Shown here piece by piece: positions 15,988 through 38,614 of a stretch of DNA of 48,488 nt (position 1 is the stretch's first letter; every line of letters starts with the position of its first letter). This stretch comes from Deltaproteobacteria bacterium (lineage in GTDB: Bacteria; Desulfobacterota; WTBG01; CAIYCZ01; CAIRTM01): the NCBI GenBank assembly GCA_016875025.1, contig VGSH01000010.1, forward strand, positions 1 through 48,488. Direction: 5' to 3'. Made by a program: the position numbers and the translations under genes. A model generated the notes under the pieces. The model made no database searches and was not told where the DNA came from. It was given only the letters and a program-made list of their open reading frames with translations.

Positions 15988-16908
15988 ATGAAAGCACTGC
16001 GAAACATCCTTGTCATTGTCGTTCTGCTGTATGCCGCGCTTATCGTCTACGCCTATCTGCCCTATCCTGTGTCTTCGCCGGAAACATTCGCCGGGAAAAA
16101 CAGTCATTTCATCAACCTTGGCGGTAAAACAATTCACTACACGGTTCAGAGCAGCGGCCCTGCGCTTATGTTGGTGCACGGATTCGGCGGCTCAACGCTT
16201 GCCTGGGACAAGCTGATACCCCTGCTCACGCCGCATTACACAGTCTACGCGCTCGACCTGCCCGGGTTCGGCCTTTCCGACAAGCCGGTTGACGCATCCT
16301 ATGCCCTGCCGGCTCAGGCCGACATCGTCTGCGCGTTAATTAATGCTTTGGGACTTGAAGAAACGGTCCTGATCGGCCATTCCATGGGCGGTGTGATTGT
16401 TGCTGACGCAGTCAGGAAATTGCCTGACAGGATCAAGGCGCTTATCATGATTGAGCCCGGATTTTATTACACGCCGCCGGCGTTTTTTCAAAATCTTTTT
16501 TTCCCGTTTGACCGGGCCATGGCAAAAATGTTTTACAGCCGCACGGGCCGCGAAAAAAGTTTTGTCGCTTCTTATTACGACACATCGCTGGTGACGGAAG
16601 AAATGATTGATGCGCTGTTGATCGCACGGCATACCCCGGGCGCGGTTGAGGCTATGCAGGCCATGAGCAGCGACCCTTCAGCGTATATAACCTACGAGAA
16701 TATCGCGGCTGCCGTTACCTGCCCCTCGCTGATGATCTGGGGTGAGCGCGGTGAGAAAACCCGCATTCGCGAAATTGAGGATTCTCAGCGCCTGATGAAG
16801 GGCTCGAAGCTTGTAATGGTAAAGAGCTGCGGCCATTACGTGCAGGATGAAAAGCCGGAACAGACCGCGCAGGCTATTCTGGCTTTTTTGCGGTCGCTGC
16901 CTTTTTGA
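15988..16908 (+). CDS. Membrane-anchored alpha/beta hydrolase
   Basis: The product is 306 residues from the ATG at 15988. An upstream TTG at 15901 lies inside the MITE and is rejected as a start. An N-terminal hydrophobic anchor (about 5-22) precedes an alpha/beta-hydrolase fold: oxyanion HGFGGS near 62, nucleophile GHSMGG near 127, and the catalytic histidine in CGHYV near 283. The usual acidic residue after IWGE is not obvious (ERGEKTR), so the acid may be displaced. The likely class is esterase, lipase or C-C hydrolase; the substrate is unknown. It converges on the chelatase operon with a 6-bp gap. Confidence 0.85.
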   Translation: MKALRNILVIVVLLYAALIVYAYLPYPVSSPETFAGKNSHFINLGGKTIHYTVQSSGPALMLVHGFGGSTLAWDKLIPLLTPHYTVYALDLPGFGLSDKPVDASYALPAQADIVCALINALGLEETVLIGHSMGGVIVADAVRKLPDRIKALIMIEPGFYYTPPAFFQNLFFPFDRAMAKMFYSRTGREKSFVASYYDTSLVTEEMIDALLIARHTPGAVEAMQAMSSDPSAYITYENIAAAVTCPSLMIWGERGEKTRIREIEDSQRLMKGSKLVMVKSCGHYVQDEKPEQTAQAILAFLRSLPF

Positions 16909-16914
16909 AACCAG

Positions 16915-19900
16915 CTATTCCAGCCCCCCTTCAAGCGCAAGCATAATATCCCGCAGTTTTTCAAGCTGTTCACCGGTTGCCTGCCAGTAGCCCCGGCGGC
17001 TTGACTCAAGCAGCACCTCGGCCATGCGCTGGGTCGCATACGGGTTGTTGCGCTCAAGGCGCGTGCGCATGCTGTCGTCAAATATCAGGCGCTCGGCCGC
17101 TTTGTCAAACACCCAGGACTCAACCGCGTGCGTGGTGGCCGCTAGGCCGAGCAGATACTCCACGCGGTCTTTTACGATTTTTCCGCCGTGAAAGTCGTGC
17201 GCGAGCATGCCTTCCAGCCAGCGCGGGTTGAGCGTGCGCGTGCGGGCCGCACGCGCAACAACAGACGCAAGCTCCTCCACATCGGTGTCGTCTCCGGCCT
17301 GGTCAACCACCATGATATCCGCGCTTTCAGCCCCGCAGGTTGCGGCTGCGCGCGCCATGCCGCCCATGAATTCGAAGTAGTGGTCAAGGTCGGTAACATC
17401 ATATTCGCTGCCGTCGCGCTCCTGCGCGATCAGCGCGACGCTTCCCAGCATGCTTTTAAGAGCTTGAGGGTTTCTGCCGGAACTGCCGCCGGTATAGGCG
17501 TGACTCATCGCCGCGGTAAAGGCTTTCCCGAGCTCATCTTCTGAATGCCACGATCCGGTTTCAATCAGCGCGGGCAGATCGGTTGCGTACTGATCAGGGG
17601 CCGGGCCGAACAGGCGCAGGGGCATGTCCCCGTCGCAGGCATCCGGCCGGCTCTGGCAGTGGCTGCGGATATAATTATCCTCTGCAGCTTCGTTCTGCTC
17701 CGCAGCCAGCGCACAGGCGCGGCTGATCAGGTCAATATGCGTGCCGAACGTGTCACGAAATATCCCGCACATGGAAACAAGCACATCAATGCGCGGCCGG
17801 CCAAGTTCCGGCAGGGGTATGACCTCGAGGTCTTTGAGCCACGCACTGGCGCGGTGCCGGATGCGCACACCCAGCAGATGCAAAATCATGGCAATGGTGT
17901 CGCCACCGGTTTTCATGGTCTCAAAGCCCCATAAAATAATGCCGACTGTTGCGGGATAGGCGCTGTGTTTGGAATGGTAGGTGCTTAGCAGCTTTTCAGC
18001 AGCCCGCGCGCCGCGTGCCTGCGCTGTGGGTGTGGGAATCAGGCGCGGGTCAAAGGCGTACATGCCCCGGCCCGTGGGGTAGACGTCCGGGTCGCGCAGC
18101 GGGTCACCGGCCCGGGCCGGAAACACATAGCGTCCGTCAAGCGCCCTCAGAAGTCCTGCGCTCTCAGCGCTGAAATCAAAACGTTTCCGCAGGTCAGCGA
18201 CATATCGGCAATAGTCCGCATCGCACCACGCTGGCGGCTCGCCGTCAAGCATGGCGTCAAGGGCCTGTGCAGCAGCCGCGCGCACGCGCTCTTCTTCAGG
18301 CGTATGTTTAATTGCCTGCCACTCAAGCCCGAGTTCGCGCGCAGCCAGCGTAAAAATTGATGGCTGCTCGCGCTCAAACTGCAGAGCCCCGAGCACAAGA
18401 TCGCGTTTTTCAAAATCCGAACAGTGCTTATCCAGAACATGCAGGCCGTGCGGGATCAGGCGGCTTTTGATGCGGTAGAGCTCTCTTTGCAGGTCATGGG
18501 GTTCAAGCGGCAGATGCAATTCGCGCGCAACAGCCTGTATGGCTTCAAGCGTTTCAGCGTTCGGTTCACGTTCATACTGTGCAAGCAAATCCTCGAGCAG
18601 CAGATAGTCTTCATACAGGCCTGAGGCAGTCATCGGGGGAGAAGCATGCGATACGCACAGGGCATAGCTCCTGCGTTTGGCGATCGTAGCCTCGGATGGG
18701 TTGCCGACCCAGTAATAATAGATATTGGGCAGGCTGCCCAGCAGCATGTCCGGAAAACATTCGCCCGAGAGCGCGATTTCCTTGCCGGGCAGAAATTCGA
18801 GCGTGCCGTGCGTGCCGAAATGGAGAACTGCATCAGCAGCGAACTCCTGTTCAAGCCAGCAGTAAAAAGCCAGATACTGATGATGGGGAACTAACGCCTT
18901 GTCATGATAAAGGCTGGCGCTTTTTTCATGGTCCCCGCGCGCAGGCTGCACCCCGATAAAGATATTGCCCAGCACAGCGCCCGGCACGAGCAGGTCCGTT
19001 CCGTCAACCATCAGCGTGCCAGGCGGCAGCCCCCAGGCATCAATGACCTGCTGCTGCACGCTCTCCGGCAAAGTACGGAACCACTCTTCATAGCGCGCCA
19101 GCGGCATCCGGAGGCCGCCGGGTTGCTGATACACAGGCGAGTTGATAATGCCGTGTGAGAGAAAAAAATCCTTCAGGCCGGTTTCAGGGATGTCAACCAC
19201 ATAACCGTGCGCGCGCAGGCGCTCAAGCATTCGCTCAAGGCTCACAAACACATCCAGATAGCCGGCCCCGGCAAGGCTGTGCTCGCCGGGGGGGTAGCTG
19301 TAGCAAAGCAGGGCAATTTTTTTCTGTTGAGCCGGCTTTGCGCGCAGGGCCAGCCATTTTAAAATGCGTCCGGCAAAGCGCTCAACGCGCTCAGGGATTG
19401 CTGCCTGGCGCTTGACGCATCCGATTGCGCCATCATCAACGACTTCCAAAGCACCCAGCATGAACGGCTCAACAGCGCCGTCGAGTTCCGGCAGGGTTAC
19501 GGCCAGCACGGTTTCAATCGGGCTGAGCCCGGTACTGCCTGCGCGCCAGGCGTCAAGATCGGTTTCAAAGGCGCGCAGGCCAACCAGCAGCGGCACATCG
19601 CACTCGCGCAAAAACTGATATATCACGTCCGGGTCACCGCCGTAGGGCCCGCCCCAGAGGCGAAAGTACTGCATGGTGATCAGCAGGTCGATACCGTCGC
19701 AGCAGGCCCTGAGCGCTTCCATATTGGCTTCAACGCTTGAAAAAATATTCAGCACATTGGCATGCGAGCACAGGCGCTCATAGAGCAGGTCAATTATCGG
19801 CACGCTGTCGCTGAAATGCATGCCGCCGTGCATTAAGACAGCAACAGTCGGCCGCTGCGGGGCAAAGCCGCTTGCGCGTTCATATGCTGCGCGGTCCGTG

Positions 19901-20517
19901 AACGTTCCCTTACCCGGACAGTACAGGCCCCAGGCCGGCACGCTTCGGGGCTTTTCAATGCGTTTAATCTGCCCACAGCCGCCGTAGTATTTAAGAAGCG
20001 TGAGCAGCATATTGTAGAGATTATCAACGCCGCCCTGCGCGTAATACTCCTGCAGGAGCATCCAGCGGTTCATGTCGCGCACCATGCGCAGCGGCAGCAA
20101 GCTTGAGAGCTTTCTGCCGAGCGCGGAGAATTTTTTGACCCGGATATAATCGGTGATGGAAAAGGAGCGGTCCTGGCTGGGCTTGAACATCACGCTGCCA
20201 GAAAACGCGCCCATGTGCGTCAGGGCGAAGATGTCATTGCTCACGGCTATAAGCACAACCACGGTCTTGTTCTGCCCGGCAAGCAGAGCGGGCAGGCTGC
20301 GGCCCAGACGCGTATCCGAGCGCACATCAATCAGGATGATATCAGCGGCTGCCACCGCTTCGCGCACCGGCTCAAGGCTTGCACTGTGTGATTCGAAGTC
20401 GTTAAAATAGAATTTTTTAACGCTGCAAATATCGCCGTGAACTGCTTGAACGCGTACAGCGGCATCGTTGAGATCAGCGGAATTGTCCATGGCGCTCAGG
20501 GCCAGTATGCGTATCAC
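16915..20517 (-). CDS. cobN: CobN-type large subunit of a cobalt/magnesium chelatase family enzyme
   Basis: This is the large, porphyrin-binding subunit of the ATP-dependent class I chelatases (CobN/BchH), which insert Co or Mg (possibly Ni here) into a tetrapyrrole ring. The 1200-residue product carries the family signatures HFGTHGTLEFLPGKE near 570 and SKHSAYPATVGIILWGFETMKTGGD further on. It starts at a GTG inside a GTGA overlap with the VWA gene's stop, so translation is coupled and the operon encodes the complete three-component enzyme. CobN rather than BchH is favoured because there are no other bacteriochlorophyll genes. The metal is uncertain; a NikR gene lies just beyond the operon. 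Confidence 0.9.
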   Translation of the reverse strand: MIRILALSAMDNSADLNDAAVRVQAVHGDICSVKKFYFNDFESHSASLEPVREAVAAADIILIDVRSDTRLGRSLPALLAGQNKTVVVLIAVSNDIFALTHMGAFSGSVMFKPSQDRSFSITDYIRVKKFSALGRKLSSLLPLRMVRDMNRWMLLQEYYAQGGVDNLYNMLLTLLKYYGGCGQIKRIEKPRSVPAWGLYCPGKGTFTDRAAYERASGFAPQRPTVAVLMHGGMHFSDSVPIIDLLYERLCSHANVLNIFSSVEANMEALRACCDGIDLLITMQYFRLWGGPYGGDPDVIYQFLRECDVPLLVGLRAFETDLDAWRAGSTGLSPIETVLAVTLPELDGAVEPFMLGALEVVDDGAIGCVKRQAAIPERVERFAGRILKWLALRAKPAQQKKIALLCYSYPPGEHSLAGAGYLDVFVSLERMLERLRAHGYVVDIPETGLKDFFLSHGIINSPVYQQPGGLRMPLARYEEWFRTLPESVQQQVIDAWGLPPGTLMVDGTDLLVPGAVLGNIFIGVQPARGDHEKSASLYHDKALVPHHQYLAFYCWLEQEFAADAVLHFGTHGTLEFLPGKEIALSGECFPDMLLGSLPNIYYYWVGNPSEATIAKRRSYALCVSHASPPMTASGLYEDYLLLEDLLAQYEREPNAETLEAIQAVARELHLPLEPHDLQRELYRIKSRLIPHGLHVLDKHCSDFEKRDLVLGALQFEREQPSIFTLAARELGLEWQAIKHTPEEERVRAAAAQALDAMLDGEPPAWCDADYCRYVADLRKRFDFSAESAGLLRALDGRYVFPARAGDPLRDPDVYPTGRGMYAFDPRLIPTPTAQARGARAAEKLLSTYHSKHSAYPATVGIILWGFETMKTGGDTIAMILHLLGVRIRHRASAWLKDLEVIPLPELGRPRIDVLVSMCGIFRDTFGTHIDLISRACALAAEQNEAAEDNYIRSHCQSRPDACDGDMPLRLFGPAPDQYATDLPALIETGSWHSEDELGKAFTAAMSHAYTGGSSGRNPQALKSMLGSVALIAQERDGSEYDVTDLDHYFEFMGGMARAAATCGAESADIMVVDQAGDDTDVEELASVVARAARTRTLNPRWLEGMLAHDFHGGKIVKDRVEYLLGLAATTHAVESWVFDKAAERLIFDDSMRTRLERNNPYATQRMAEVLLESSRRGYWQATGEQLEKLRDIMLALEGGLE

Positions 20518-21218
20518 AGCAGGTCCTCGAGATAATAATGGTCAGCGCTCATCATTGCAGCCAGCTCTTCCAGAAAGCCCAGGCTTCGGGCACAGTGCTC
20601 CGTCGTAACAAAAATCAGCTGCGCATGCAGCTGCTGCGCTGCCAGCAGGCGCATATCTCCTGCAAGCGAGCCGGTGTGGAAAACATTGGGCCGTCCGTCC
20701 GAGATCACAACGATTGTCACGGCTGCGCTGCGCTCTTTTTCCCCAAGCTCAAAAGCCTGCAGCATAGCAGCTGTGAGCGGGGTTTTGCCGCCGGTGGGGA
20801 TGGCGTCCAGAGCCCCGTCAACAGCGCTGTGGTCGCGCGTGGGCTCTACAACCACCTCAGCGCTGCTGCCGCGAAAGCAGATCAGGGCAACCCGGTTTTT
20901 CTTTTCATAGGAGTGCTGCAAAAACTGCCAGGCGAGCGTTTTTGCCAGGCGCACCCTGCGGTCCATGCGCATGGAAGACGATGCGTCGAGCGCAAGTATG
21001 CAGAGCCCCTCGGCCCGGCCCTGTTTGATTTTTTCCATGAGATGGCCGGGCTGAATGGCAAGCGAGCCGCTTTCGCGCACAGCCCGGCGGATGGTGGCGT
21101 CAAGGGCAACTGATCGGGGCGTCTCACACGGGCGAGAACTGATATAGCGGCCGCGCGATGTGTCGCGTACCGGCGCTTCACGGCCCCGGGAGGGACGCGC
21201 AACCGGGGGCGTCAGGAT
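20514..21218 (-). CDS. chlD: VWA-domain part of the chelatase medium subunit (ChlD/CobT-like), reached by -1 frameshift
   Basis: This frame encodes the C-terminal half of a ChlD/BchD-type subunit. First comes the conserved linker signature [25 protein letters not shown], then a von Willebrand A domain with the MIDAS motif DASSSM, a downstream GGKTPLT threonine and ISDGRPN. There is no ATG, GTG or TTG between the frame's upstream TGA and the GTG at 21080, and that GTG lies after the conserved RGRY linker. The segment therefore appears to be translated only by shifting from the upstream ATPase frame at the A10 run. The joined product (20514-22303) would be 596 residues: AAA+ domain, short linker, VWA domain. 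The stop overlaps the cobN start. Confidence 0.85.
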
Positions 21219-22303
21219 TTTTTTTTTACGTCCCCGCTGCGCTCAAACGGTTCCGGCTGTTCGTGTTCAATCTGCTGATCAAGGGCGCTTTCGATCTGCT
21301 GCCGGTCAAGTGGCCGGTCTTTTTCAAATGGTTTCTGGCGCAGGCGGTGCGGCAGGGCCAGCAGGGCCGCATCGATAACGTCCTGGCGCTCAAGGGTTGT
21401 CCGGCCGGCAAGCGCGGCAATGGCGGCAGCGGTTTTCTCCATCACGATATCGGCCCGGTGGGTGCGGATGCCGAGGCTTGCGGTAATCGTAACGATCTGC
21501 TCAAGCATCTCGGCGCTTTCTTGGACATCACCAAGCAATCCCTGGGCAGCGGTAATCTCTTGCATTAGTTTTTCCTGCTGGTCGGCGAAGCGTTCCTCAA
21601 ACGTCCAGCAGTCGCGGTCGAACTCTTTTCTGCGCTTTATCACCTCCAGCCGGTCAGCCGGGTCGGTCAGCGCGCCGACTTCAACGCACAGACCGAAGCG
21701 GTCAAGTATCTGCGGCCGCAGCCGTCCCTCTTCCGGGTTCATGGTGCCGACCAGGATAAAGCGCGCCGGATGATAGAGCGAGATGCCTTCGCGCTCGATA
21801 ACATTGACGCCCATGGCGGCTGCATCAAGCAGAATGTTGATCAGGTGGTCATCCAGCAGGTTGACTTCGTCGATGTAGAGAATATTGCGGTTGGCGCGGG
21901 CCAGGATGCCGGGCTCAAGGGCCTTGATGCCATCGGTGAGCGCCCGCTTGATATCAAGCGAGCCGATTACCATGTCCTCGGTGGCTGACAGCGGCATATC
22001 AACAATGTCCATGGCCTTTTCAACCCAGGGCAGGATGGCCTCGCGCTCGAAGCGCTGCTGGCAGGCCTTGCACATCAGGCGCATATTTTCCGGGTCGCAA
22101 TTAAATGGACAGCCTTCAACAACGCGCAGGCGCGGCAGCGTGTGGGCCAGGGCGCGCACGGCGGTGGATTTTCCGGTGCCTTTGTCGCCGGTGATGATCA
22201 CGCCGCCGACCGTGGGGTCGATTGCGTTGATCAGCAGGGCCTTTTTGAGCAGGTCCTGACCGACAATCGCCGACAGGGGGAAAATAACGAATTTATGATG
22301 CAT
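21212..22303 (-). CDS. chlI: AAA+ ATPase small subunit of the chelatase (ChlI/BchI-like); 0-frame product
   Basis: This AAA+ motor drives metal insertion. From the ATG at 22303 it is 363 residues with Walker [10 protein letters not shown] at 39-47, Walker [13 protein letters not shown] near 141-152, sensor [19 protein letters not shown] near 187 and an arginine-rich C-terminal helical domain. A cysteine group (C65, C69, C78, C81) resembles that of CobN-associated ATPases. A TTG at 22342 would extend it, but the 22303 ATG is preferred. Translation ends at a TGA four bases after a run of ten A's; a -1 slip there continues into the VWA frame. Normal termination would give the small subunit, shifting the medium subunit. 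Confidence 0.92.
21218..21227 (-). promoter_or_regulatory. A10 slippery site for probable -1 frameshifting
   Basis: On the coding strand the 0 frame reads GTA AAA AAA AAA TCC TGA. Re-reading one A gives AAA ATC CTG ACG and the open VWA frame. Nine bases beyond the run, CCCCGG and CCGGGG can pair across a 13-base loop, a spacing typical of stimulatory hairpins. A GGGGA segment just upstream could act as an internal Shine-Dalgarno stimulator. Transcriptional slippage on the A-run (insertion of one A) would have the same result. A sequencing error in the homopolymer is the alternative. Confidence 0.7.
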
Positions 22304-22318
22304 GGCAGTGCGCTCTCT

Positions 22319-22370
22319 ATGATGCTGTTTGGCAGGGAACAACCATAGCGCAGCATCATTGATATGTCAA
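22319..22370 (-). promoter_or_regulatory. Sigma-70-type promoter with 9-bp inverted repeat upstream of the chelatase operon
   Basis: On the minus strand TTGACA (22370-22365) and TATGGT (22347-22342) are 17 bp apart. A perfect inverted repeat, ATGATGCTG at 22319-22327 and CAGCATCAT at 22351-22359, places one arm between -35 and -10 and the other just after the expected start of transcription. This arrangement suits a repressor operator. NikR, encoded immediately beyond, is a candidate, but the sequence is not the E. coli NikR box. No cobalamin-riboswitch motif was seen. Confidence 0.6.
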
Positions 22371-22460
22371 ATATTTAAAATCGTGCTACCGTTAACGCCA
22401 TCAAACGTCTCGGTGCAACATAAGCATCAGGCGAGCGTCAGACCACACCTGACCCAGGGA

Positions 22461-22542
22461 GTGTCACCCCGGACACTGGATCCGGAACCCATGAAAAAAC
22501 CCTGGATTAAGGCTATCCGCTGCGCTCCTGCCGGAATGACAC
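22461..22542. repeat. Short palindromic repeat
   Basis: An imperfect inverted repeat runs from GTGTCACCCCGG to CCGGAATGACAC, enclosing an ACTGGATCCGG...CCCTGGATT region. Its ends and inner CCTGGATT/GCCGGAATGAC words match the interrupted repeat near 15770-15930. It occupies much of the 22343-22677 spacer, which otherwise holds only the divergent promoters of the chelatase operon and nikR. Confidence 0.55.
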
Positions 22543-22612
22543 ACCCATGTCCTGCCGCACGCGATCCGGCATCCATCTCTGCTACCCATTGAGATTGACC
22601 GGGCCGTCTTTA

Positions 22613-22641
22613 TTGACATTCCGGGAAATCGTTGCTATTTT
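22613..22641 (+). promoter_or_regulatory. Predicted sigma-70-type promoter of nikR
   Basis: TTGACA at 22613-22618 and TATTTT at 22636-22641 are separated by 17 bp. They lie 37 bp before the nikR ATG, which has an AGAGAGG ribosome-binding site. Confidence 0.6.
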
Positions 22642-22677
22642 TAAAAAAATTGTGCACGCCAAAGAGAGGTTGCTTCC

Positions 22678-23094
22678 ATGTCCACGTTAATCCGTTTCGG
22701 CATATCGCTTGACAAGACCCTTCTTGAATCATTTGACTCCCTGATCAGCGACCGCGGCTACACCAACCGGTCCGAGGCCCTGCGTGATCTTATCCGCGAT
22801 GAACTGGTGCGGCGCGAATGGCTCTCAGGCGACGTCGTAGCCGGCACCATTACGCTGGTCTACGATCATCATACCCGCGAGCTTAATGCACGCCTGACCG
22901 AAATCCAGCACAATCATCACAATGTTATTATCGCCACGCAGCACATTCATCTCGACCACCATAATTGCCTTGAGGTTATCGTGGTGCAGGGAACCCCCAA
23001 GGATATCGAAAAGCTGGCTTCACGGTTGAAGGCCGCCCGCGGTGTCAAGCACAGCAGCCTGACCATGGCCACCACGGGGAAAAACCTGCTGTAG
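22678..23094 (+). CDS. nikR: Nickel-responsive transcriptional regulator NikR
   Basis: The 138-residue protein has an N-terminal ribbon-helix-helix DNA-binding domain (STLIRFGISLDKTLLESFDS, then TNRSEALRDLIRDEL) and a C-terminal ACT-like nickel-sensing domain. The high-affinity Ni ligands of E. coli NikR (H76, H87, H89, C95) correspond to H78, H89, H91 and C97 (QHIHLDHHNC). It is transcribed divergently from the CobN/ChlID operon across a 375-bp spacer, which raises the possibility that Ni levels control the chelatase. No nickel transporter gene is in the window. Confidence 0.95.
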   Translation: MSTLIRFGISLDKTLLESFDSLISDRGYTNRSEALRDLIRDELVRREWLSGDVVAGTITLVYDHHTRELNARLTEIQHNHHNVIIATQHIHLDHHNCLEVIVVQGTPKDIEKLASRLKAARGVKHSSLTMATTGKNLL

Positions 23095-23164
23095 GCACTG
23101 CGGACGCATGTAGATACTACCAGATGCTGAGTCTGCCCGGCGCCTCTGTCACAGCCTTTCACTG

Positions 23165-23193
23165 TTGACATGCCGCCCACCGTGGATTAGTAT
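23165..23193 (+). promoter_or_regulatory. Predicted sigma-70-type promoter
   Basis: TTGACA at 23165-23170 and TAGTAT at 23188-23193 are 17 bp apart. They lie 54 bp upstream of the small membrane-anchored protein gene at 23248. Confidence 0.6.
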
Positions 23194-23247
23194 AGCCTTC
23201 AGTGCATATTTTAATAATCAGCAACCCAAAGTAATGAAAGCACTGCC

Positions 23248-23589
23248 ATGGTCGAGAAAACCCTGATTGTCATTATTGCCGTGGTGTTTTTTATGGCGAG
23301 CTGGTGGTGGTCCAATCGCCAGAATGCCACGGAGGATTTTTTTGAAGCCCGGCTGCGTGAGCGCGATGCGCTGATAGCGCAGCTGAGCACGCTGGCCCTG
23401 CCGCAGGTGCAGGGCAAAACCCCGGAGCAGGTGCGGGCTCTTTTTAAGACGCTTTTCCCCTCTCATGAGGTGCGTCTGGAAGATAACGCAGTGTACTTAG
23501 GCGATCTGGGCGTTCGGTTCTCTGAAGATGGGGCTGCCGAAGGCCTGTCTCTGCCCTGGAATACCGTCAAGCAGATACCGCCGCAGTGA
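23248..23589 (+). CDS. Small membrane-anchored protein of unknown function
   Basis: The 113-residue protein has one N-terminal transmembrane helix (about 4-21, followed by WWW). A charged helix with coiled-coil character follows (FFEARLRERDALIAQLSTLAL), then a small soluble domain with PEQVRALFKTLFPSHEVRLE. No family was recognised. It has its own predicted promoter and sits between nikR and a DMT transporter. It is probably a real gene, judging by promoter, codon usage and a coherent protein pattern. Confidence 0.65.
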   Translation: MVEKTLIVIIAVVFFMASWWWSNRQNATEDFFEARLRERDALIAQLSTLALPQVQGKTPEQVRALFKTLFPSHEVRLEDNAVYLGDLGVRFSEDGAAEGLSLPWNTVKQIPPQ

Positions 23590-23687
23590 GCAGACTGGTA
23601 TTACAAGCCCGCCGATGCGCCGACCCTCAAGGTTTTTCCCCCTGGCGCGCACCTTCCGGCATCGACAACAGCATGTAAGGAACGCTT

Positions 23688-24554
23688 TTGAAAACAGCCA
23701 ATCGACATGTGCGCGGCGCATTGCTGATTACTGCCGCCATGTTTCTTTTTTCAAGTATCGGTCCGTTCGTGCGCACGGTCGCGTTGCCGGTCGCCGTGAT
23801 CATCTGCATCACCTCCTGTCTGTCAGCGCTGTTTCTGCTGGTCTGGTTTGTCATCAGAGGGGACGTCAGCTCGCTTGATATCCGGGGCCATCGCCGCTGG
23901 CTGCTGCTTTCGGCCGTCTGCATCTTCGGCAATGTGTTCTGCTATTACCATGCCTATCGCATGACCACCATGGCGAACGCGGTCATCACCCACTATACCG
24001 CCCCGGTGTTTGCCGCCCTGCTTGCTCCGTTCATGCTGGGAGAAAAATGGGAGCGCGTTACCGGCATAGCCCTGCTCATATCGATGGCGGGAATGGTGCT
24101 TCTGGCGGGTGATGTTTCCCTCGGCAGGGCGCACATGGCCGGAACCGCCCTGGGCATGCTGTCCGGTCTTTTTTACGGCATTTCCATTGTTGTGGGAAAA
24201 CGCCTGGTGAGCCGGTACCGGCCCCCCGTGATCATGCTATACCAGTGCGCGGTTATTGCCGGCCTGGCCCTGCCGCTGGCAATGACCGGGCCCTGGGCCA
24301 TGACAGCGGGCACAGTGCTGGTATTGTGCTCCTACGCTGTCATGGTGGGCCTTTTGGCCGCGGGCCTGTACCTGAAGGGGCTGCGCCATGTGGAGGCGCA
24401 GCATGCAGGCATCCTGGCCTATTCTGAGCTGTTGTTCGTGGTGCTGCTGGGGGTGCTGCTGGGTGAAACGCCCGGTGCGCGCGTTGTCGCCGGCGGGGTT
24501 TTGATCGCGCTCAGCGGCTGGGTTATTCTGCGCGCTGAAAGCCGGAGCTCTTGA
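23688..24554 (+). CDS. DMT-superfamily (EamA) inner-membrane transporter
   Basis: The 288-residue protein has ten predicted membrane helices in two EamA repeats, the second starting near residue 148 (GTALGMLSGLFYGISIVVGKRL). The EamA-type segment ANAVITHYTAPVFAALLAPFMLGE near 91-114 is clear, with its counterpart GILAYSELLFVVLLGVLLGE near 246. The start is a TTG with an AAGGA ribosome-binding site six bases before it. Such proteins export or import small metabolites; the substrate cannot be told from sequence. It converges on the heptosyltransferase gene. Confidence 0.88.
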   Translation: MKTANRHVRGALLITAAMFLFSSIGPFVRTVALPVAVIICITSCLSALFLLVWFVIRGDVSSLDIRGHRRWLLLSAVCIFGNVFCYYHAYRMTTMANAVITHYTAPVFAALLAPFMLGEKWERVTGIALLISMAGMVLLAGDVSLGRAHMAGTALGMLSGLFYGISIVVGKRLVSRYRPPVIMLYQCAVIAGLALPLAMTGPWAMTAGTVLVLCSYAVMVGLLAAGLYLKGLRHVEAQHAGILAYSELLFVVLLGVLLGETPGARVVAGGVLIALSGWVILRAESRSS

Positions 24555-30521: not shown

Positions 30522-31346
30522 ATGCACAAGAAAAAGACAGTTTCAATGGTATTCATGGCAGCGCTTCTGGTCAGCCTGGGCCTTGCCGACATTTCAACAG
30601 CGCAAAAGGCAGACTCCCTCGACAAAAAAGCCGAAGAGATTGCTGCTGCCGCAGCTGTAACCTCTAATCATCCCGAGATCCCGGAGGGCGTCTCCTGCAA
30701 CGACTGCCATACCATGACGATCGACGCCAATACCACGGCCACCCAGGTATGGCTGGGCGGTGAGTACCTCGGCAAGGCCGAGGGCGAAGGCCGCATGAGC
30801 GATGAGCAGCTCTGGGCGGAAATCAACAAGCTTCTCGGCGGCGGCAAGGCAGGCACCAAAACCTATGTTCTGGCAACCAGCATGAACAACCGGCCCCTTT
30901 CCACAACGGCCGAGTGGACCTTTGATCCCGGCAGAAGAATGCTGTACGGGGTTCATGAGATGAACACGGAAAAACTTGCCCATATCAAGGCCAATCCCTT
31001 TGTAAGCCTGAACTGGCACGACGAGTATGCAGGCATTGATGGCCCCTATCGCTGCTGCCAGATCAAAGGGCGCTGCGAACTGCTTGACGGCCAGCATCCG
31101 GATTTTGAAAAGATACTGATCGAGTTCGCACCCTACGAGGATGCGGCCACGCGTATGATGCCGCAAAACCCAACGCCTGAGCAGCGCGAGGAAGTGCTCA
31201 CGCGGGTGCGCGAGACGTTTAAAAAGCGCTTTCTCATGAGCCGCATCACCATCGACCGGATCACCATCGTCAACAAGGATTTCATCTCGAAGGGCTTCAG
31301 GAATGTCCAGCGCTGGGAGCGCGCTAACACCGGCGAAAAACCATAA
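30522..31346 (+). CDS. Exported c-type heme protein fused to a flavin split-barrel (PNPOx-like) domain
   Basis: The 274-residue protein has a signal peptide (positively charged start, hydrophobic core 8-22, AQ-type cleavage near 28). A single CxxCH heme-attachment motif, CNDCH, is at 59-63. A pyridoxamine-5'-phosphate-oxidase-like split-barrel domain follows from about 85 (YVLATSMNNRPLSTTAEWTFDPGRRMLYGVHEMN, then ANPFVSLNWHD). This points to a periplasmic redox protein with covalent heme and perhaps a flavin or tetrapyrrole in the barrel. HugZ-type heme-degrading proteins share the split-barrel fold. A GGAG ribosome-binding site precedes the ATG. The fusion is uncommon and I know of no defined function. 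Confidence 0.8.
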   Translation: MHKKKTVSMVFMAALLVSLGLADISTAQKADSLDKKAEEIAAAAAVTSNHPEIPEGVSCNDCHTMTIDANTTATQVWLGGEYLGKAEGEGRMSDEQLWAEINKLLGGGKAGTKTYVLATSMNNRPLSTTAEWTFDPGRRMLYGVHEMNTEKLAHIKANPFVSLNWHDEYAGIDGPYRCCQIKGRCELLDGQHPDFEKILIEFAPYEDAATRMMPQNPTPEQREEVLTRVRETFKKRFLMSRITIDRITIVNKDFISKGFRNVQRWERANTGEKP

Positions 31347-31406
31347 CCTGCCGGTGGCTCCGCATAGCTTTTGTGCATTAACGCAAACAAACCAGAGGGA
31401 GAAACC

Positions 31407-32210
31407 ATGAAGACAGTTGTTGTGACCGGCAGTTCAAAAGGCATAGGCCTGGGCCTTGCCAATGAGTTTTTAAAAAAAGGCTGCAATGTCGTTCTCAGCA
31501 GTTTCGCAAAAGATGAAATGATGCATGAATATGAGAAGGCCTGCGCCATCTATGGGAAAAAACGCGTGGCCGCGCAGGCCTGCGATGTCAGCAGTCTTGG
31601 TCAGCTCAGGCAGCTCTGGGAGACCGCGCAGAGCGCGTTTGGCCAAGTCGATATCTGGATGAACAATGCCGGCATCGCAAATACCACACGGCCCATCTGG
31701 GAGCTGGAAACACGTGAAATCCCGCGCGTAGTCAGCACCAACCTGACCGGCGTCATCTACGGAACGCAGGTCGCGCTGCAGGGCATGCTCAAGCAGGGCA
31801 GCGGCCAGATATACAACTCGGAAGGCTTCGGCAGCGACGACATGGTGCTGAGGGGCCTGAGCGTCTACGGTGCTACCAAGCGGGCCGGCCGCTATTTGAC
31901 CGAGTCAATGGCAGCAGAGCTGGAAGGCACGCCGGTACAGATCGGGACAATCAGCCCTGGAATCGTATTAACGGATTTTCTTGTGGACGACGTGCGTAAA
32001 ATGGCCCCTGAGCAGCGCGAACAGGCCAAGGCCGTCTACAATATCCTGGCAGACAGCGTTGAGGAGGTCACGCCGTGGCTGGTGGAGGAAGTGTTGAAAA
32101 ACACCGAAAACGGAAAACGAATTATCTGGCTCAACGAAGAGCGGACAAACCGGTACATGAATGACGAGGCCCGCCTGGGTCGCGATGTCTTCAGCCAGTT
32201 TGGCCTCTAA
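31407..32210 (+). CDS. Short-chain dehydrogenase/reductase 1, NYC1/NOL-like
   Basis: This classical SDR of 267 residues has the nucleotide motif TGSSKGIG near residue 7, NNAG near 86 and catalytic YGATK near 151. In place of the usual NxSS the active-site strand reads IYNSEGFGSDD. An N-x-(D/E)-G-x-GS pattern at this position is characteristic of chlorophyll b reductases NYC1 and NOL, which reduce a formyl group on a tetrapyrrole. The start is the ATG at 31407 behind an AGAGGGAG site. It is tandem with a paralogue of identical length 23 bp downstream. NAD(P)H-dependent carbonyl or alcohol chemistry is secure; the substrate is not. Confidence 0.85.
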   Translation: MKTVVVTGSSKGIGLGLANEFLKKGCNVVLSSFAKDEMMHEYEKACAIYGKKRVAAQACDVSSLGQLRQLWETAQSAFGQVDIWMNNAGIANTTRPIWELETREIPRVVSTNLTGVIYGTQVALQGMLKQGSGQIYNSEGFGSDDMVLRGLSVYGATKRAGRYLTESMAAELEGTPVQIGTISPGIVLTDFLVDDVRKMAPEQREQAKAVYNILADSVEEVTPWLVEEVLKNTENGKRIIWLNEERTNRYMNDEARLGRDVFSQFGL

Positions 32211-32233
32211 CCCATAGAATCAGGAGAATCACA

Positions 32234-33037
32234 ATGATATCTGCCGTCATAACCGGAAGCACAAAAGGCATCGGGCTCGGCCTGGCACAGGAGCTGCTCA
32301 AGCGCGGCTGTGCCGTGGCGATCAGCTCGCGTTCACGCAACAGCGTTGACACAACCGTTGAAGTCCTCGGCAAGGAGTTCGGAGCGGACAAGGTTATCGG
32401 CCGCACCTGTGACGTGACCGACCCCGCGCAGGTACAGGCGCTCTGGGATGCGGCCGCCGGGGCCTTCGGAAAAGTTGACATCTGGATCAATAATGCGGGC
32501 ATATCCCTTTCAAAAATCCTGCTCCGGGATCTGCCTCCAGAGCTGATAGCCCCGGTAGTAAACACAAATATGGTCGGCCTGATGTATGGATGCCAGGTCG
32601 CAGCGTGCGGCATGCTCAAGCAGGGCAGCGGCAGCATTTTTAATCTTGAAGGCCATGGCAGCAATGACATGCTCGTGCCCGGCCTGAGCATTTACGGCGC
32701 TACCAAGCGCGGCGTGCGCTATTTTACCGAAGCGCTCGCAGAAGAGTTGAAAACCACGCCGGTAAAAATCGGGGGCATGGGACCGGGCATCGTCATAACC
32801 GATCTGGTCCTGGAAGACCTGCGGCGCATGAGTCCGGATGATCGCGAACAGTCCAAAATCCTCATCAACATTCTGGCCGACACGGTCGACACCGTGGCTC
32901 CATTCCTGGTTGATGAGATGCTCAAGGAACCTGAAAACGGCGCAAGCATCCAGTGGATAACATCGGAGAAGGCCAATGCCCGCTTTGAGGATCCGGTCTA
33001 CCTTGAGCGCGACCTGCTGAGCAGTCACGGGATATAA
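32234..33037 (+). CDS. Short-chain dehydrogenase/reductase 2, NYC1/NOL-like
   Basis: The 267-residue SDR is a clear tandem paralogue of the previous gene: TGSTKGIG, NNAG, IFNLEGHGSND in the active-site strand and YGATKRGVRYFTEALAEEL with the Tyr/Lys pair. Both retain the N-x-E-G-x-GS pattern. An AGGAG ribosome-binding site precedes the ATG. Two copies may reduce two positions, work in sequence or form a heterodimer. Gene order suggests co-transcription with the whole cluster. Confidence 0.85.
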   Translation: MISAVITGSTKGIGLGLAQELLKRGCAVAISSRSRNSVDTTVEVLGKEFGADKVIGRTCDVTDPAQVQALWDAAAGAFGKVDIWINNAGISLSKILLRDLPPELIAPVVNTNMVGLMYGCQVAACGMLKQGSGSIFNLEGHGSNDMLVPGLSIYGATKRGVRYFTEALAEELKTTPVKIGGMGPGIVITDLVLEDLRRMSPDDREQSKILINILADTVDTVAPFLVDEMLKEPENGASIQWITSEKANARFEDPVYLERDLLSSHGI

Positions 33038-33103
33038 TACTTTTTTATTTCTTTAATGAGCCGGACAGCAGCCCTGCCGACCCACACCACAACGGAGTTA
33101 ATC

Positions 33104-33727
33104 ATGTACATTATTGGTTTTTCAGGCAGTCCCCGCCTGAACGGAATTTGTAGCCGTCTTATGCAGTCGGCTCTCGACGGCGCCCTGCAGCAGGGCGCGG
33201 ACGTGAAGCGCTACGACCTGATCAAGCTGGACATCAAGCATTGCCTTGGCTGCTGCCAGTGTATCTTTGACGATCCGCAACTGCCGGTCGGCCGCTGCCC
33301 GCTCAAGGATGACATGGCCGCCGTGCTGGAAGATTACATGCTCGCCGACGGCTATATTTTTGCGTGCCCGGTTTACCACGGCACAGTAACGGCATTGATG
33401 AAAAAATTCATCGAACGAAAGTTCGGCCTGTCCTGGCGTGCACCCGAGGCGGCGGGAAAGCTGCCCGAGTCCCGCGTGCCGGCGGATTTCAAAAAAAAGG
33501 CCATTATGATCGCTACCGGCAACTCGCCTGATGAATTCGTGGAAGTCATGGGTGATCCCTGCTTCGAGGTGATGAGTTCGGACTGGATGGTGGAGCAGGT
33601 TGAAACCGTGGGGAAAATGTATGTCGGCGGTGTGGAGACCCTGTCCCCGACCGATACCGAGGATCGTTTGAAAAAATCCTTTGATGCCGGTAGCCACCTG
33701 GTGGAGGCCATCCGAAAAGACCTTTAG
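33104..33727 (+). CDS. NAD(P)H-dependent FMN reductase / flavodoxin-fold protein
   Basis: The 207-residue flavodoxin-like protein has the FMN-phosphate loop GFSGSPRLNGICSRL near residue 4 and the CLGCCQCIFDD...GRCPLKDDM cysteine segment typical of the FMN-reductase/iron-sulfur-flavoprotein branch. ACPVYHGTVTALMKKFIER near 85 is also typical. Four cysteines (C-x2-C-x2-C, then C ten residues on) could hold an Fe-S cluster as in Isf proteins, but this is not assured. The start is ATG 33104 after CGGAG; an upstream extension from 33056 is rejected. It could supply electrons or reduced flavin to the other cluster enzymes. It is not UbiX. Confidence 0.82.
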   Translation: MYIIGFSGSPRLNGICSRLMQSALDGALQQGADVKRYDLIKLDIKHCLGCCQCIFDDPQLPVGRCPLKDDMAAVLEDYMLADGYIFACPVYHGTVTALMKKFIERKFGLSWRAPEAAGKLPESRVPADFKKKAIMIATGNSPDEFVEVMGDPCFEVMSSDWMVEQVETVGKMYVGGVETLSPTDTEDRLKKSFDAGSHLVEAIRKDL

Positions 33728-33813
33728 CGGCATATGCATTTTTATAATATCTGCCGGCACAGTGCCGCTGACTCAAAAAACAATCGCGCACCATTCAGCC
33801 TTTGGAGAAGAAC

Positions 33814-34383
33814 ATGGCCTATGTGACCCTGCCTAAAGTAACACCGCAGCAGAAAATACTTTTCGAACGTTTCGGCCTCCCGTTGATTGAAACCATGGAG
33901 GTTGACCACTTTGAACGTGAAGTTGCGAACTATCTCGATGCGCACAATGTTTTGAGCCTTTCGACCTGCCGCGACAACACGCCGCGCTGCACCACGCTGG
34001 AATATTTCAACAACGGGCTCACTGTGTATCTGTTCTCGGAAGGCGGGTGGAAGATCACCAACCTGAAGGCCAATCCCGCGGTGTCCTTCACTATCCACGA
34101 CCCCTATGATTCGGGAACGGATTATTTCGGCGCTTCGGGCCTGCAGGTCTGGGGCAGGGCCTCCCTTTTCAAACGCAAGGACGACCCGGAGCAGGCGGCC
34201 CTGATCCAGTCATACTATCGCCACTCGGAAGGGCTGAAGCGCCAGGGCCTGTATGAGGCCATCCAGGCGCTCAACTTTAATGTCATCACGATCGAGCCGG
34301 TTAAAATCTCCTATCTTGATCTGCGCAAGGGATTCCGCAGTTTTGTCTGGAAAAAAGATGCCTCTGCTGAGGACGAAGCATGA
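33814..34383 (+). CDS. Flavin split-barrel (PNPOx-like) protein 2
   Basis: The 189-residue cytoplasmic protein has the split-barrel pattern: EVANYLDAHNVLSLSTCRDNTPRCTTLEYFNNGLTVYLFSEGG, then KITNLKANPAVSFTIHDPYDS and GLQVWGRASLF. The same order occurs in FMN-binding and heme- or F420-binding family members; the cofactor cannot be read off. Start ATG 33814 follows GGAGAAG. Its stop overlaps the UbiD start (ATGA), so the two are translationally coupled and may work together. It is related to the product of the gene at 38740. Confidence 0.78.
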   Translation: MAYVTLPKVTPQQKILFERFGLPLIETMEVDHFEREVANYLDAHNVLSLSTCRDNTPRCTTLEYFNNGLTVYLFSEGGWKITNLKANPAVSFTIHDPYDSGTDYFGASGLQVWGRASLFKRKDDPEQAALIQSYYRHSEGLKRQGLYEAIQALNFNVITIEPVKISYLDLRKGFRSFVWKKDASAEDEA

Positions 34384-35876
34384 CCACGAAGAAAAAAAAT
34401 AAATTCCCCTTTGACTCTCTGAGAGACTATGCCGCAGCGCTCAAGGAGCAAGGCCGTTTTATTGAAATCGAGGAGATGGACCAGGACCGCTATGAGATGA
34501 CGGCGTTTTCCTACCGGCTGGAAGACCGCTTGCAGGACACCGCGCCGGCGTTTCTGGTCAGAAGGACAAAAATCAACGGCCGGACCTATGACATGCCGGT
34601 GGTCGGCAATCTTTTCAACGGTTTCGGTTCCGTTGCCCAATGTTTCGGTGCTCCGTTGGATGAGATGACTGAGAGCCGCTCCGAGATGCACGCCCTGGCT
34701 TCCCGCAAGATTCTAAACTGCCTCGGGGATGATTTCCGCTGGAAAACAATCGAGCCCGTTGTTATCGATAAAGCCCAGGCCGCCTGCAAGCAAGTTATTT
34801 ACACGGGGGAGGATGTTGATATTTTCCGTTTCCCCTGGATAAAAAACAATCCCGCGGATGGGGGCAGGTTCGTCAGTTCCGGCTGCGCGGTAATGCAGGA
34901 CCCGGAACTCGGCCGCAATGTGGGCACGTACCGCCTGCATGTCAAGGGGCCCCGGAAGGTCGGCATCTGCCTGACACAGCCCAGTCACGGGTTCCAGTTC
35001 GTTATGCGGGCGGCCGAGCGCGGCCTGGAACGTATCCCGGTGTCGGTTGCCGTGGGCGTCGATCCCCTGACCTTCATGATGAGCGGCACCCGGCTGGCCG
35101 ATCTCGGTGAGGACGAATTCGCCATTGCCGGTGGATTTCGCGGCAAGCCGGTTGAACTGGTAAAGAGCGAGACCAGCGACATTCTGGTCCCCGCCCATGC
35201 AGAGATCATCATTGAGGGAGAAATTCCCATTATGGAGGCCGAGGAAGACGGTCCTTACGGCGAGCTGTTCGGCTATATCGGTCACAAGCACCAGGCCTTT
35301 TATATCGATATCAAGGCTATCACCTGCAGGACCAGCCCCTGGGTCTACAATATATGGCCCGGCATCGGCGGAGCCTATTTGACCCTGCCCTGGGACGTTT
35401 CACATTTTGCGCGGTTGAAAAAAATAATGCGCAACCTCGTCAAGCTGTATACGCCCGTTGAAACGCCCTCCATAGTCATAATCAGCATTGATAAAAAACT
35501 TCCGGGCGAGGGCATCGAGGCCGGTATGATGGTTCTGGGCTACCGCATGGTGGGGTTCAGTAAAAAAATCGTTATCGTGGTTGACCGCGACATTGACCCG
35601 ACCGATACGGCGCGCGTAATGCATGCGGTCGGCACGCGCTGGCAGCCCCATCCGGCAAGTCTGCTGGTGAAGCAGTCGATCCATATTCCGGTCGAACCAA
35701 GCTGCCGCGAAATGTTTTTGAGCAGCAAGATCGTAATAGATGCCACCCGTCAGCTTTCCTCCGAAGGAGGGCCGAACATGTTCCCGCTCGACAACCGCAC
35801 GGTTGTCGAGGAGCGCGCCCCGGAAGCCTTCGAGATCGTTGACAGCAAATGGGCTGAATATTTCAATGACAAATGA
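34380..35876 (+). CDS. UbiD-family prenylated-FMN-dependent decarboxylase
   Basis: UbiD enzymes reversibly decarboxylate aromatic or alpha,beta-unsaturated acids using prenylated FMN from UbiX. The 498-residue product has the cofactor/substrate segment GRNVGTYRLHV with N180 and R185, and EEDGPYGELFGY near 288-299, in which E295 matches the catalytic Glu282 of fungal Fdc1. The position of Fdc1 Glu277 is Asp290 here. It overlaps the upstream split-barrel gene by 4 bp. No ubiX is in the window. In this setting it could remove a carboxyl from a tetrapyrrole side chain or from an aromatic acid; this is inference. Confidence 0.92.
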   Translation: MTTKKKNKFPFDSLRDYAAALKEQGRFIEIEEMDQDRYEMTAFSYRLEDRLQDTAPAFLVRRTKINGRTYDMPVVGNLFNGFGSVAQCFGAPLDEMTESRSEMHALASRKILNCLGDDFRWKTIEPVVIDKAQAACKQVIYTGEDVDIFRFPWIKNNPADGGRFVSSGCAVMQDPELGRNVGTYRLHVKGPRKVGICLTQPSHGFQFVMRAAERGLERIPVSVAVGVDPLTFMMSGTRLADLGEDEFAIAGGFRGKPVELVKSETSDILVPAHAEIIIEGEIPIMEAEEDGPYGELFGYIGHKHQAFYIDIKAITCRTSPWVYNIWPGIGGAYLTLPWDVSHFARLKKIMRNLVKLYTPVETPSIVIISIDKKLPGEGIEAGMMVLGYRMVGFSKKIVIVVDRDIDPTDTARVMHAVGTRWQPHPASLLVKQSIHIPVEPSCREMFLSSKIVIDATRQLSSEGGPNMFPLDNRTVVEERAPEAFEIVDSKWAEYFNDK

Positions 35877-35921
35877 TGCGCCGGCACATGCTGCCGTCGC
35901 ACGCGCTGAAAGGGAGGCGAC

Positions 35922-36731
35922 ATGTTTATAACAATACTGAAGTATGCATTTTTGGCCCTGCTGGGCATCGTGGTGCTTGCCGTGCTCGTGGCGGTGCCGT
36001 TTCTCATCAAAGCCCGCAAGGAAGGCGACCGCCTGTTCGCCCGCTATGCCTCCTATACCGACACCGAGCTGGTTCAGCGCTTTGATATGCGCGATTTTCC
36101 GGTTAAGCCGGAGTACAAAAAACTCCATCCTGCCAAGTTCCTCAAGATGATGAAATATGTGGTGTCAAGCCGGCAAGCCGATCGCCTCGCGCGGGTGAAC
36201 TCCCTTGACGTGACCATGTTGTACTTTATGAAAATGTACACAATGATGATCCGGCCCGACTACGGCTACAACCTGCCGGTTCTATCAGTCGATTTCATCT
36301 TCATCGGCGGTATGCGTGTCTATGTTATCGAGATCATCGACCCTGCCAAAATCGACGACCCAAACAAGGAACGCTGCTATAGTGAGGTGAAAAAATGGGC
36401 GGACCGGGTAGCGCAGTTCAAGCAGTCCAAAGTAAGTGAATGGTTTTACGATTTCATCACTGATTCCAGCATCCACATTTCCACGAACCGCACGGATGAC
36501 GAAGTGCTTTTTGAAATATACAAAACATATCTCAACAGCTATCTCAATATGGTCGAACGGGCTGAAAAAGTGACCCCGGAGCAGAGCAGGCAGCTGGAAG
36601 AGGGCCTTGAACTGTTTGTCACGACCCTGCTTGATAAAGGCGGGCCCGCGGTTAATGTCTTCAAGACCTTTCTGGGTCCCGAAAAGCAGCGCGATTATAT
36701 TCGGACCGTTATGTTCGGCCTTGAGAAGTAG
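35922..36731 (+). CDS. Membrane-anchored protein resembling ferredoxin-dependent bilin reductases (PcyA/HY2 family)
   Basis: The 269-residue product has one N-terminal membrane helix (about 5-28). The rest follows the bilin-reductase pattern as I recall it from PcyA. PDYGYNLPVLSVDFIF (112-127) aligns with the PLYGLPLFGCD stretch, so D124 matches catalytic Asp105, and VYVIEIIDPA matches the following strand. SEWFYDFITDSSIHI then TDDEVLF aligns with the W-x-x-IFS...FIRP...EERF segment, and FKTFLGPEKQRDYIRTVMFGL (247-267) matches the C-terminal FG-x-x-W...Y-x-x-x-LFD signature. A counterpart of PcyA His88 is not evident. A membrane anchor is unusual for the family. GGGAGG precedes the ATG. Confidence 0.65.
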   Translation: MFITILKYAFLALLGIVVLAVLVAVPFLIKARKEGDRLFARYASYTDTELVQRFDMRDFPVKPEYKKLHPAKFLKMMKYVVSSRQADRLARVNSLDVTMLYFMKMYTMMIRPDYGYNLPVLSVDFIFIGGMRVYVIEIIDPAKIDDPNKERCYSEVKKWADRVAQFKQSKVSEWFYDFITDSSIHISTNRTDDEVLFEIYKTYLNSYLNMVERAEKVTPEQSRQLEEGLELFVTTLLDKGGPAVNVFKTFLGPEKQRDYIRTVMFGLEK

Positions 36732-36778
36732 CAACTCAACCCGGTTAGTTCTGATAACGTATAGTCAGGAGAAAAAGC

Positions 36779-37525
36779 ATGAACGTAAAAAACGATTTTT
36801 CATTCCCCCCGCCCGGGCAGCTGGACACCATCAGGGCCTTTTATGCCGCAATAAACGGCAATGACTCTTTTGATCCGAAAACAGAGCAGGCATCGGGCGT
36901 ATGGAGCGCTGAAGTGCACTGCTCGCGCGGGCCAATACTTGAAAAGGCAGGCATGGCCATGGTGGAAATGTGCGGCGGATCGGTTGATGGCGCTTCGGCC
37001 GACATCAGGCTTCTGCAAACCCTTGCCTGGCCTGTATCAGCTGACGTGCCGGGTCTTATCATCATGGCCAGTACAAGCAAAATGGAAGGGGGCGATGTCA
37101 TCATTACGTTTTATGCGGACCTGATCGCCCAGAACGCCGCAGCAGCAGAAAGTGACAAAGAGCCCTTTACCACTGCCATGCGAACTTCGTGTGAAAGACA
37201 CGGCCGGGACCTGGCCGAGTATCAGGCTTTTTTAACAGGCCGGGGAATGCTTGGCGCCTGCGCCGCTGAGTGCGGCATGCTGTATTTTTTCGAGGAAAGC
37301 GATGCTGCGTTTTTGGATGATTGCATCAAAGCCGCGCTGCAGGCCTACCGCCTTATTCTCGACAGTGCCGGTTCCCGGGCCGGGGGAGACAAAGGCCGCA
37401 TGGCTGAATGCCGCGCAACTATCAGGGACTGGATGGTCACTCAGGACTACGGTGTCAAGGTGGCGCGCCAGAACGGCATACCTGATGAGCTTATGGGAAT
37501 TTACGGATTTCCTCCCGGGGTCTAA
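36779..37525 (+). CDS. Divergent HemF-like protein (coproporphyrinogen III oxidase fold), catalytic residues not conserved
   Basis: The 248-residue protein resembles oxygen-dependent coproporphyrinogen oxidase. GPILEKAGMAMVEMCGG (51-67) parallels the GGVFEQAGVNFSHVHG segment of E. coli HemF. RTSCERHGRDLAEYQAF (135-151) parallels its ARDLCLPFGEDVYPRYK. ECGMLYFFEESDAAFLDDC (164-182) parallels RGIGGLFFDDL...FDRC. The HPHNP histidine is replaced (MASTSK, 96-101) and the RRGRYVEFNL stretch is not kept, so it probably does not perform the O2-dependent HemF reaction. It may bind a tetrapyrrole for another purpose. An AGGAG site precedes the ATG. Confidence 0.6.
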   Translation: MNVKNDFSFPPPGQLDTIRAFYAAINGNDSFDPKTEQASGVWSAEVHCSRGPILEKAGMAMVEMCGGSVDGASADIRLLQTLAWPVSADVPGLIIMASTSKMEGGDVIITFYADLIAQNAAAAESDKEPFTTAMRTSCERHGRDLAEYQAFLTGRGMLGACAAECGMLYFFEESDAAFLDDCIKAALQAYRLILDSAGSRAGGDKGRMAECRATIRDWMVTQDYGVKVARQNGIPDELMGIYGFPPGV

Positions 37526-37588
37526 CGCGCATACATGGCACGCGCCGGCCCCAAAAAAAAACGACTAGAATTTGGAGAAACGACAAGC

Positions 37589-38614
37589 ATGCATATTCAG
37601 AAAAAAGGTCTTATCGTCTACGATTCGGTGTACGGGTCAACGGTTGAAGTCGCCTACTGGATAAAAAACATTATCGGCATGGATCAGTGCCTTGATGTGA
37701 AGCCACTGACACAGGTCATAACTGTTGCGCCCTATGACTATGTCATCATCGGCAGCGCAACGCGCATGGAAAAGCCCCTCAAGGGCATTTATGCCTTCGT
37801 GGAAACCCACAGGCAGCGGCTGGCCCGTAAACAGGTCTGCTACTTTCTGCTGTGCGGCGACTGCGATGAAACCATGGTACTGAATGTGCCGGGCAAGCCG
37901 CCGCACCTTATCGCCGGCAGGAACTATTTGCAGGACATACAAAAAAAATATCCCGAAATACGCCCTGTGGTCATCGGCGCCTTCGGCGGCCGGCAGGTAA
38001 TGCCCCGGCTGCAGAAAAAAGAAGCTCTGACCCTGTGGCTGCTGGAGAAACTGGCAAAAGAAGGGACTCCCTGGAAAGGCCTTGACATCTGGGAGTCGCT
38101 GATCGCCGAGCGCGTTGAGCTGTTCGCAAACGAGGTCCGTGAAAAAGTCCTTGGCGCCCCGCCCAATACAGAGATTGAGCGCTTTCGCTCCTGTTGGCAG
38201 TCGCTGCAGCCGGGAAGCCTCACTGACAGCGCAAAGAAAAAATACACGCCCAAGCCCTGTTTCGCGCATGAGGAAATGGCCAAACAGTATTTTACCCGCA
38301 GCAGGATACACGGTGACCTTGAGCTTGGCATACAGCTTTTGAAACAGTGGGCAACTGCCTGCGGCCTTGAGCTGAAAGAGCAGTCCCGAACGTTTTTTAA
38401 TATCTATTACCATGCTGTGAAATCCTACAGCGGCCGCAGCCTCACCATACACATTGTCGCTGCCACGCTGCCCGAAGACCCCGGCAACCTGCATGTTTCC
38501 TTCCGCTGCTATGCGAAAAAAGCAGTCCGGGGCGGTGCCCAAATAGACATCGCCGCTGCAGAAGAAATACTGTGGGCCGACGGCAGAAAAGCTGAGCCCG
38601 CGCCCGCCCGGTAG
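37589..38614 (+). CDS. HemG-like flavodoxin-domain protein with C-terminal domain of unknown function
   Basis: From the ATG at 37589 (GGAG site) the protein has 341 residues. Residues 1 to about 165 form a flavodoxin domain like menaquinone-dependent protoporphyrinogen oxidase HemG: GLIVYDSVYGSTVEVAYWI binds FMN phosphate, then YDYVIIGSATRMEKPLKGIYAFVETHRQRLARKQ and VVIGAFGGRQVMPRL. Residues from about 185 to 341 form an extra domain I do not recognise, with CFAHEEMAKQYFTRSRIHGDLELGIQLLKQWA and a beta-rich tail. It could be an electron carrier or an oxidoreductase for a tetrapyrrole. It is the last gene before a strong terminator-like hairpin. Confidence 0.68.
   Translation: MHIQKKGLIVYDSVYGSTVEVAYWIKNIIGMDQCLDVKPLTQVITVAPYDYVIIGSATRMEKPLKGIYAFVETHRQRLARKQVCYFLLCGDCDETMVLNVPGKPPHLIAGRNYLQDIQKKYPEIRPVVIGAFGGRQVMPRLQKKEALTLWLLEKLAKEGTPWKGLDIWESLIAERVELFANEVREKVLGAPPNTEIERFRSCWQSLQPGSLTDSAKKKYTPKPCFAHEEMAKQYFTRSRIHGDLELGIQLLKQWATACGLELKEQSRTFFNIYYHAVKSYSGRSLTIHIVAATLPEDPGNLHVSFRCYAKKAVRGGAQIDIAAAEEILWADGRKAEPAPAR

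Follow-up and report, generated by a model that had tools for sequence, protein, structure and literature searches.

A chlD gene with a probable frameshift site at a run of ten A's, beside nikR, in a deltaproteobacterial genome

The chlD gene of the window, by which the whole 48,488-nucleotide stretch analysed here is meant, is divided between two overlapping reading frames that meet at a run of ten A's (A10). This arrangement raises the question of whether the junction is a frameshift site, through which one gene supplies two chelatase subunits, or whether it marks two proteins with separate starts, a gene in decay or an error in the sequence. The comparisons below make it very likely that frameshifting at the A10 run, giving a ChlI-like and a ChlD protein, is real and functional.

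The two frames of chlD and their junction

Features of the chlD region, in window coordinates
Feature	Position	Strand	Evidence or remark
CobN/BchH-type large chelatase subunit, 1200 aa	16915..20517	-	PF02514, 1013.7 bits; TIGR02025 (BchH), 855 bits, above its cut-off of 829
-1 frame of chlD, RGRY linker and VWA domain, 234 aa	20514..21218	-	TIGR02442 positions 407-641; VWA_2; MIDAS; substitution pattern
CCCCGG (21208-21203)/CCGGGG (21189-21184) pairing 3' of the run	21184..21208	-	probably no stimulator; z about 0 to -0.7
A10 slip site (candidate), 0 frame GTA AAA AAA AAA TCC TGA	21218..21227	-	sequence; same in G001
0 frame of chlD, AAA+ ATPase, ChlI-like short product, 363 aa	21212..22303	-	TIGR02442 positions 1-341; Walker A
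NikR, divergent from chlD	22678..23094	+	PRK04460, 196 bits, over its cut-off

The run comprises exactly ten A's, and the 0 frame ends across it just as the first-pass annotation had read it, so that the C-terminus of the AAA+ protein is GDVKKKS. Read from the ATC at 21218, the -1 frame has 234 codons before it reaches its stop at 20514. A -1 shift joins 362 residues of the former to the 234 of the latter, and the coordinates of the 596-residue ChlD that had been proposed on this basis are right. In a profile search the two halves match consecutive stretches of one profile of 641 positions, TIGR02442. The AAA+ half scores 414 bits against TIGR02030 (BchI-ChlI), below that profile's cut-off of 467. 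The Walker A motif (GDKGTGKS) is intact in the AAA+ half, as is the start of the MIDAS motif (DASSS) in the VWA half. The joined reading is supported by the one-frame homologues, which bear both halves in a single chain.

The same junction is found in the second species of the genus (G001; contig CAIRTM010000102.1 of the uncultured delta proteobacterium MAG LaPlata_bin-1461, locus L033), where an identical stretch of 18 nucleotides, GTAAAAAAAAAATCCTGA, lies at the same point of chlD. Between the two species, identity is 91% in the AAA+ half and 77% in the VWA half; dN/dS (NG86) is 0.054/0.58 for the former and 0.15/0.70 for the latter. In the first 46 codons 3' of the run, 8, 8 and 24 differences fall on codon positions 1, 2 and 3 of the -1 frame (p 5e-4). 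By this pattern of substitution, the linker that directly follows the run is under purifying selection in that frame. The 16 codons up to the 0-frame stop differ between the species in one codon, and 3 of 349 such stretches are as alike.

The nearest upstream stop in the -1 frame is a TGA 8 codons before the ATC. No ATG, GTG or TTG lies between this TGA and RGRY in the window gene or in that of G001, as had been noted for the window, and an independent start of the VWA part ahead of RGRY was rejected on this ground. The -1 frame of the window gene has its first GTG at 21080 (codon 47). Slippage is what remains, because the linker is translated in the -1 frame and yet has no such start codon before RGRY.

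The 3.25-Mb genome has five runs of ten A's. The other four are situated ahead of a frame or between frames, in short frames that correspond to no clear gene, or on the antisense strand of an ATPase gene. They were rejected as extra recoding sites, since none of the four is clearly in sense within a conserved gene.

Two products from one gene

Translation would start at the ATG at 22303, and part of the ribosomes would shift by -1 at A_AAA_AAA within the run. Ribosomes that remain in frame would reach the TGA and release a 363-residue AAA+ protein like the ChlI small subunit, while those that shift would make the 596-residue AAA+/VWA medium subunit. Together with the CobN/BchH-type large subunit encoded downstream, whose GTG start overlaps the VWA stop of chlD, the two products would complete a chelatase of three parts encoded by two genes. 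When Antonov et al. (2013) tested frameshifted chlD genes in E. coli, the efficiency of the -1 shift was 10% for A7, 40% for A9 and 63% for A11 (PMC3711429). By interpolation between the last two, the A10 run might shift roughly half of the ribosomes.

A downstream stimulatory RNA structure is described as usual for frameshifted chlD (fs-chlD) genes (PMC9227772). The CCCCGG/CCGGGG pairing that had been proposed as a stimulating hairpin is present, but the role assigned to it did not hold up. Against shuffled sequence the fold shows no gain in stability (z -0.43, -0.02 and -0.66 for 40, 60 and 80 nucleotides), and G001 folds otherwise. Across 40-80 nucleotides in both species z is between 0 and -1.6 and the structures differ, so no downstream structure shared by the two was found. 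An Rfam search of 16000-24000 gave zero matches. A Shine-Dalgarno-like stimulator 5' of the run was also rejected: the window has GGGGA where G001 has GGCGA. Because the published efficiency follows run length (PMC3711429), a downstream structure is no strict requirement, and the A10 run alone may suffice as the signal.

The same two products could arise during transcription, if RNA polymerase slips on the A10 run and messages with A11 (or A8) carry the long frame. Homopolymers of at least 8 are typical sites of transcriptional realignment (PMC3711429), and A10 qualifies. Against this, what had been predicted for the chlD family and then tried out in E. coli was a programmed -1 frameshift, though by an assay that compares protein products (PMC3711429). 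Transcriptional slippage is a possible, if less likely, source of the long frame, and a ribosomal slip is tentatively preferred.

It is quite improbable that the run is A11 in reality and the gene one-frame, as in the sister genus. The run is a homopolymer, its relatives are one-frame, and the genomes of the window and of G001 are multi-contig drafts, in which A11 miscalled as A10 in both would mean a single frame. However, the error would have to be shared by two species with dS of about 0.6-0.8, which have the run length and the TCC TGA in common, and split chlD genes with A9 runs are common elsewhere. The comparison of run length with related genomes that had been suggested at the outset thus gave the same A10-TCC-TGA in G001 and an in-frame A9 in the sister genus. 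A separate VWA protein, started in the -1 frame at the GTG at 21080 or at a rare start codon and perhaps coupled to the upstream stop, would still contain the VWA domain if begun at codon 47. It is nevertheless very improbable: the linker ahead of that GTG is under selection in the -1 frame, neither species has a start codon before RGRY, and the one-frame relatives fuse the parts. There is even less to be said for a decaying gene, whose frame would have been broken by a loss-of-function mutation that became fixed in the genus. All nearest relatives are indeed one-frame, but the VWA frame, the MIDAS motif and CobN are intact in both species and the third-position bias is strong, which makes decay hardly credible.

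No separate chlI was found in the window genome or, likewise, in G001. Besides chlD, the window genome has just one MoxR-like ATPase, 32% identical, which was rejected as a second chlI. One CobN-type large subunit is present, and the genome agrees with the published genotype of cobN with a frameshifted chlD (PMC9227772). The absence of chlI is by itself weak evidence and no proof of a need for the short product, because the sister genus and several Methanobacteriales have a one-frame ChlD and also lack a chlI match.

Origin among one-frame relatives

In the sister genus (G002 and G008, loci L005 and L006) chlD is a one-frame gene with A9 at the same place, read TTA AAA AAA AAC. One A added to this in-frame tract gives exactly the arrangement of the window. 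Outside the family, two archaeal MAGs (69% and 63% identity) and Methanobacteriales (57-62%) come closest; their ChlD proteins are encoded in one frame, mostly without an A run. In a tree of 54 ChlD proteins, with 13 split genes sampled, the window's genus and the sister genus pair (support 100/99) inside a clade that is otherwise one-frame. A single clade of all 13 split genes was rejected (AU p 4.98e-6, 54 sequences). The tree program warned of long branches that meet near the root; the well-supported pairing of the two genera is unaffected.

Because the split gene falls within a group of one-frame relatives and a single split clade is rejected, the split chlD probably arose by growth of the in-frame A tract, apparently recently and independently, through an A added in the window's genus to a tract whose counterpart in the sister genus is in frame. 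One gain in the window's genus would be the simplest history; counts on the tree alone do not separate gain from loss. Kuznetsov et al. concluded that frameshifted chlD spread by transfer and that its signals did not evolve again (PMC9227772). The window case speaks against a single old fs-chlD group as a general rule. With one- and two-frame versions in sister genera, the birth of a programmed frameshift is directly open to study.

Other junctions were seen among the relatives. The A9 junction of the sister genus is itself an A_AAA_AAC site, after which the -1 frame stops within about 15 codons in both species; a -1 slip there would yield a protein about as long as ChlI, opposite to what the slip in the window gene would do. 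In Methanomassiliicoccales (L036-L038) chlD is split without an A run and has a conserved GACCCTTTCGCCTGA at the frame change, where a frameshift would need a site of another kind. In genomes of the order Methanobacteriales (L103, L104, L108, L110-L112) the ChlI-like frame closes with GATATAAAAAA(A) and then a stop, after which most of them have the ATG of the next frame. These are probably separate overlapping genes rather than frameshifts.

Metal context and known systems

The first-pass annotation had called the enzyme a cobalt chelatase. The chelatase subunits are there, but the cobalt/B12 label is weakened, as CbiC was not found, the TP-methylases are two and NikR is adjacent. Because CbiC (precorrin-8X methylmutase) was not found in the window genome, a draft in which absence is not absolute, and only two TP-methylases are present, by their length probably SUMT-HemD and RsmI, the organism does not look like a B12 producer, and the cobalamin pathway in which CobNST serves B12 synthesis was not found in the draft. 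The sister genus has six TP-methylases and CbiC. HemB is present in the window genome; G001 lacks HemB and SUMT, probably through a gap in the draft.

In the window genome and G001, NikR is next to chlD and divergent from it; in G002 and G008 it is also adjacent, but upstream and in the same direction. The intergenic region between chlD and nikR (22304-22677) contains GGTAGCACGATTTTAAATATTTGACA, almost unchanged in G001, a possible promoter and operator. In an archaeal relative (L035:7797-10582), genes of an ECF-type transporter (S component, CbiQ-like, double ATPase) separate chlD from cobN. Elsewhere in the window, a cluster at 30522-38614 contains two short-chain dehydrogenases and a UbiD-type decarboxylase, and 35922-36731 has a weak match to phycoerythrobilin:ferredoxin oxidoreductase, unexpected in such a bacterium.

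Hydrogenotrophic methanogens produce a NikR and a protein annotated as CobN1 in large amounts only when nickel is limiting (PMC12350162). For Methanothermobacter, an older review had suggested that such proteins include nickel chelatases (PMC3087415). A NikR-linked chelatase in an apparently non-B12 organism fits the former report, supposing that CobN1 is orthologous to the window's CobN. A role in the handling of nickel or tetrapyrroles under metal limitation is the leading guess, held with low confidence. The fuller proposal is doubtful: a nickel-responsive, non-B12 CobN/ChlD chelatase that methanogens have as well, whose single chain one extra A would have split into two subunits in one genus, while the sister genus might use its A9 in the opposite sense, with the slip giving the short product.

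Poly-A frameshifting of chlD is of a known kind. Like the fs-chlD genes (PMC3711429; PMC9227772), the window gene has AAA+ (ChlI-like) and VWA parts, in that order, in two overlapping frames with a -1 shift at A_AAA_AAA, and the slippery A-rich site in the overlap is kept in relatives, as A10 in both species of the genus (n=2). As in those systems, cobN is present and a separate small-subunit gene absent, in the window genome and in G001, and the small and medium subunits are proposed to come from one gene. The window gene differs in having A10 followed by TCC TGA, a very short linker and no conserved downstream structure, in being nested among one-frame relatives, and in its setting, a genome without CbiC and cobalamin methylases in which NikR adjoins chlD. 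With the one-frame ChlD of Methanobacteriales and the sister genus (L005, L006, L034, L035, L086-L094) it shares the protein clade, the short linker and the Walker and DxSSS motifs. These genes have a single continuous frame, with an in-frame A9 or A10 in the sister genus and L035, and mostly without an A run in Methanobacteriales.

In dnaX of Escherichia coli and Thermus, a slip site in an A run lets one AAA+ ATPase be made in two lengths for a single complex, and the window chlD likewise has an A run at which a slip would give two AAA+ lengths. In E. coli dnaX the shift leads to the short product, whereas in the window chlD it would lead to the long one. If the one-frame genes with A9 in the sister genus slip, theirs would be the dnaX-like arrangement. 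Two things are new in the window gene: it appears to have arisen recently and independently among relatives with a one-frame gene, and it is linked to nikR in an organism that apparently makes no B12.
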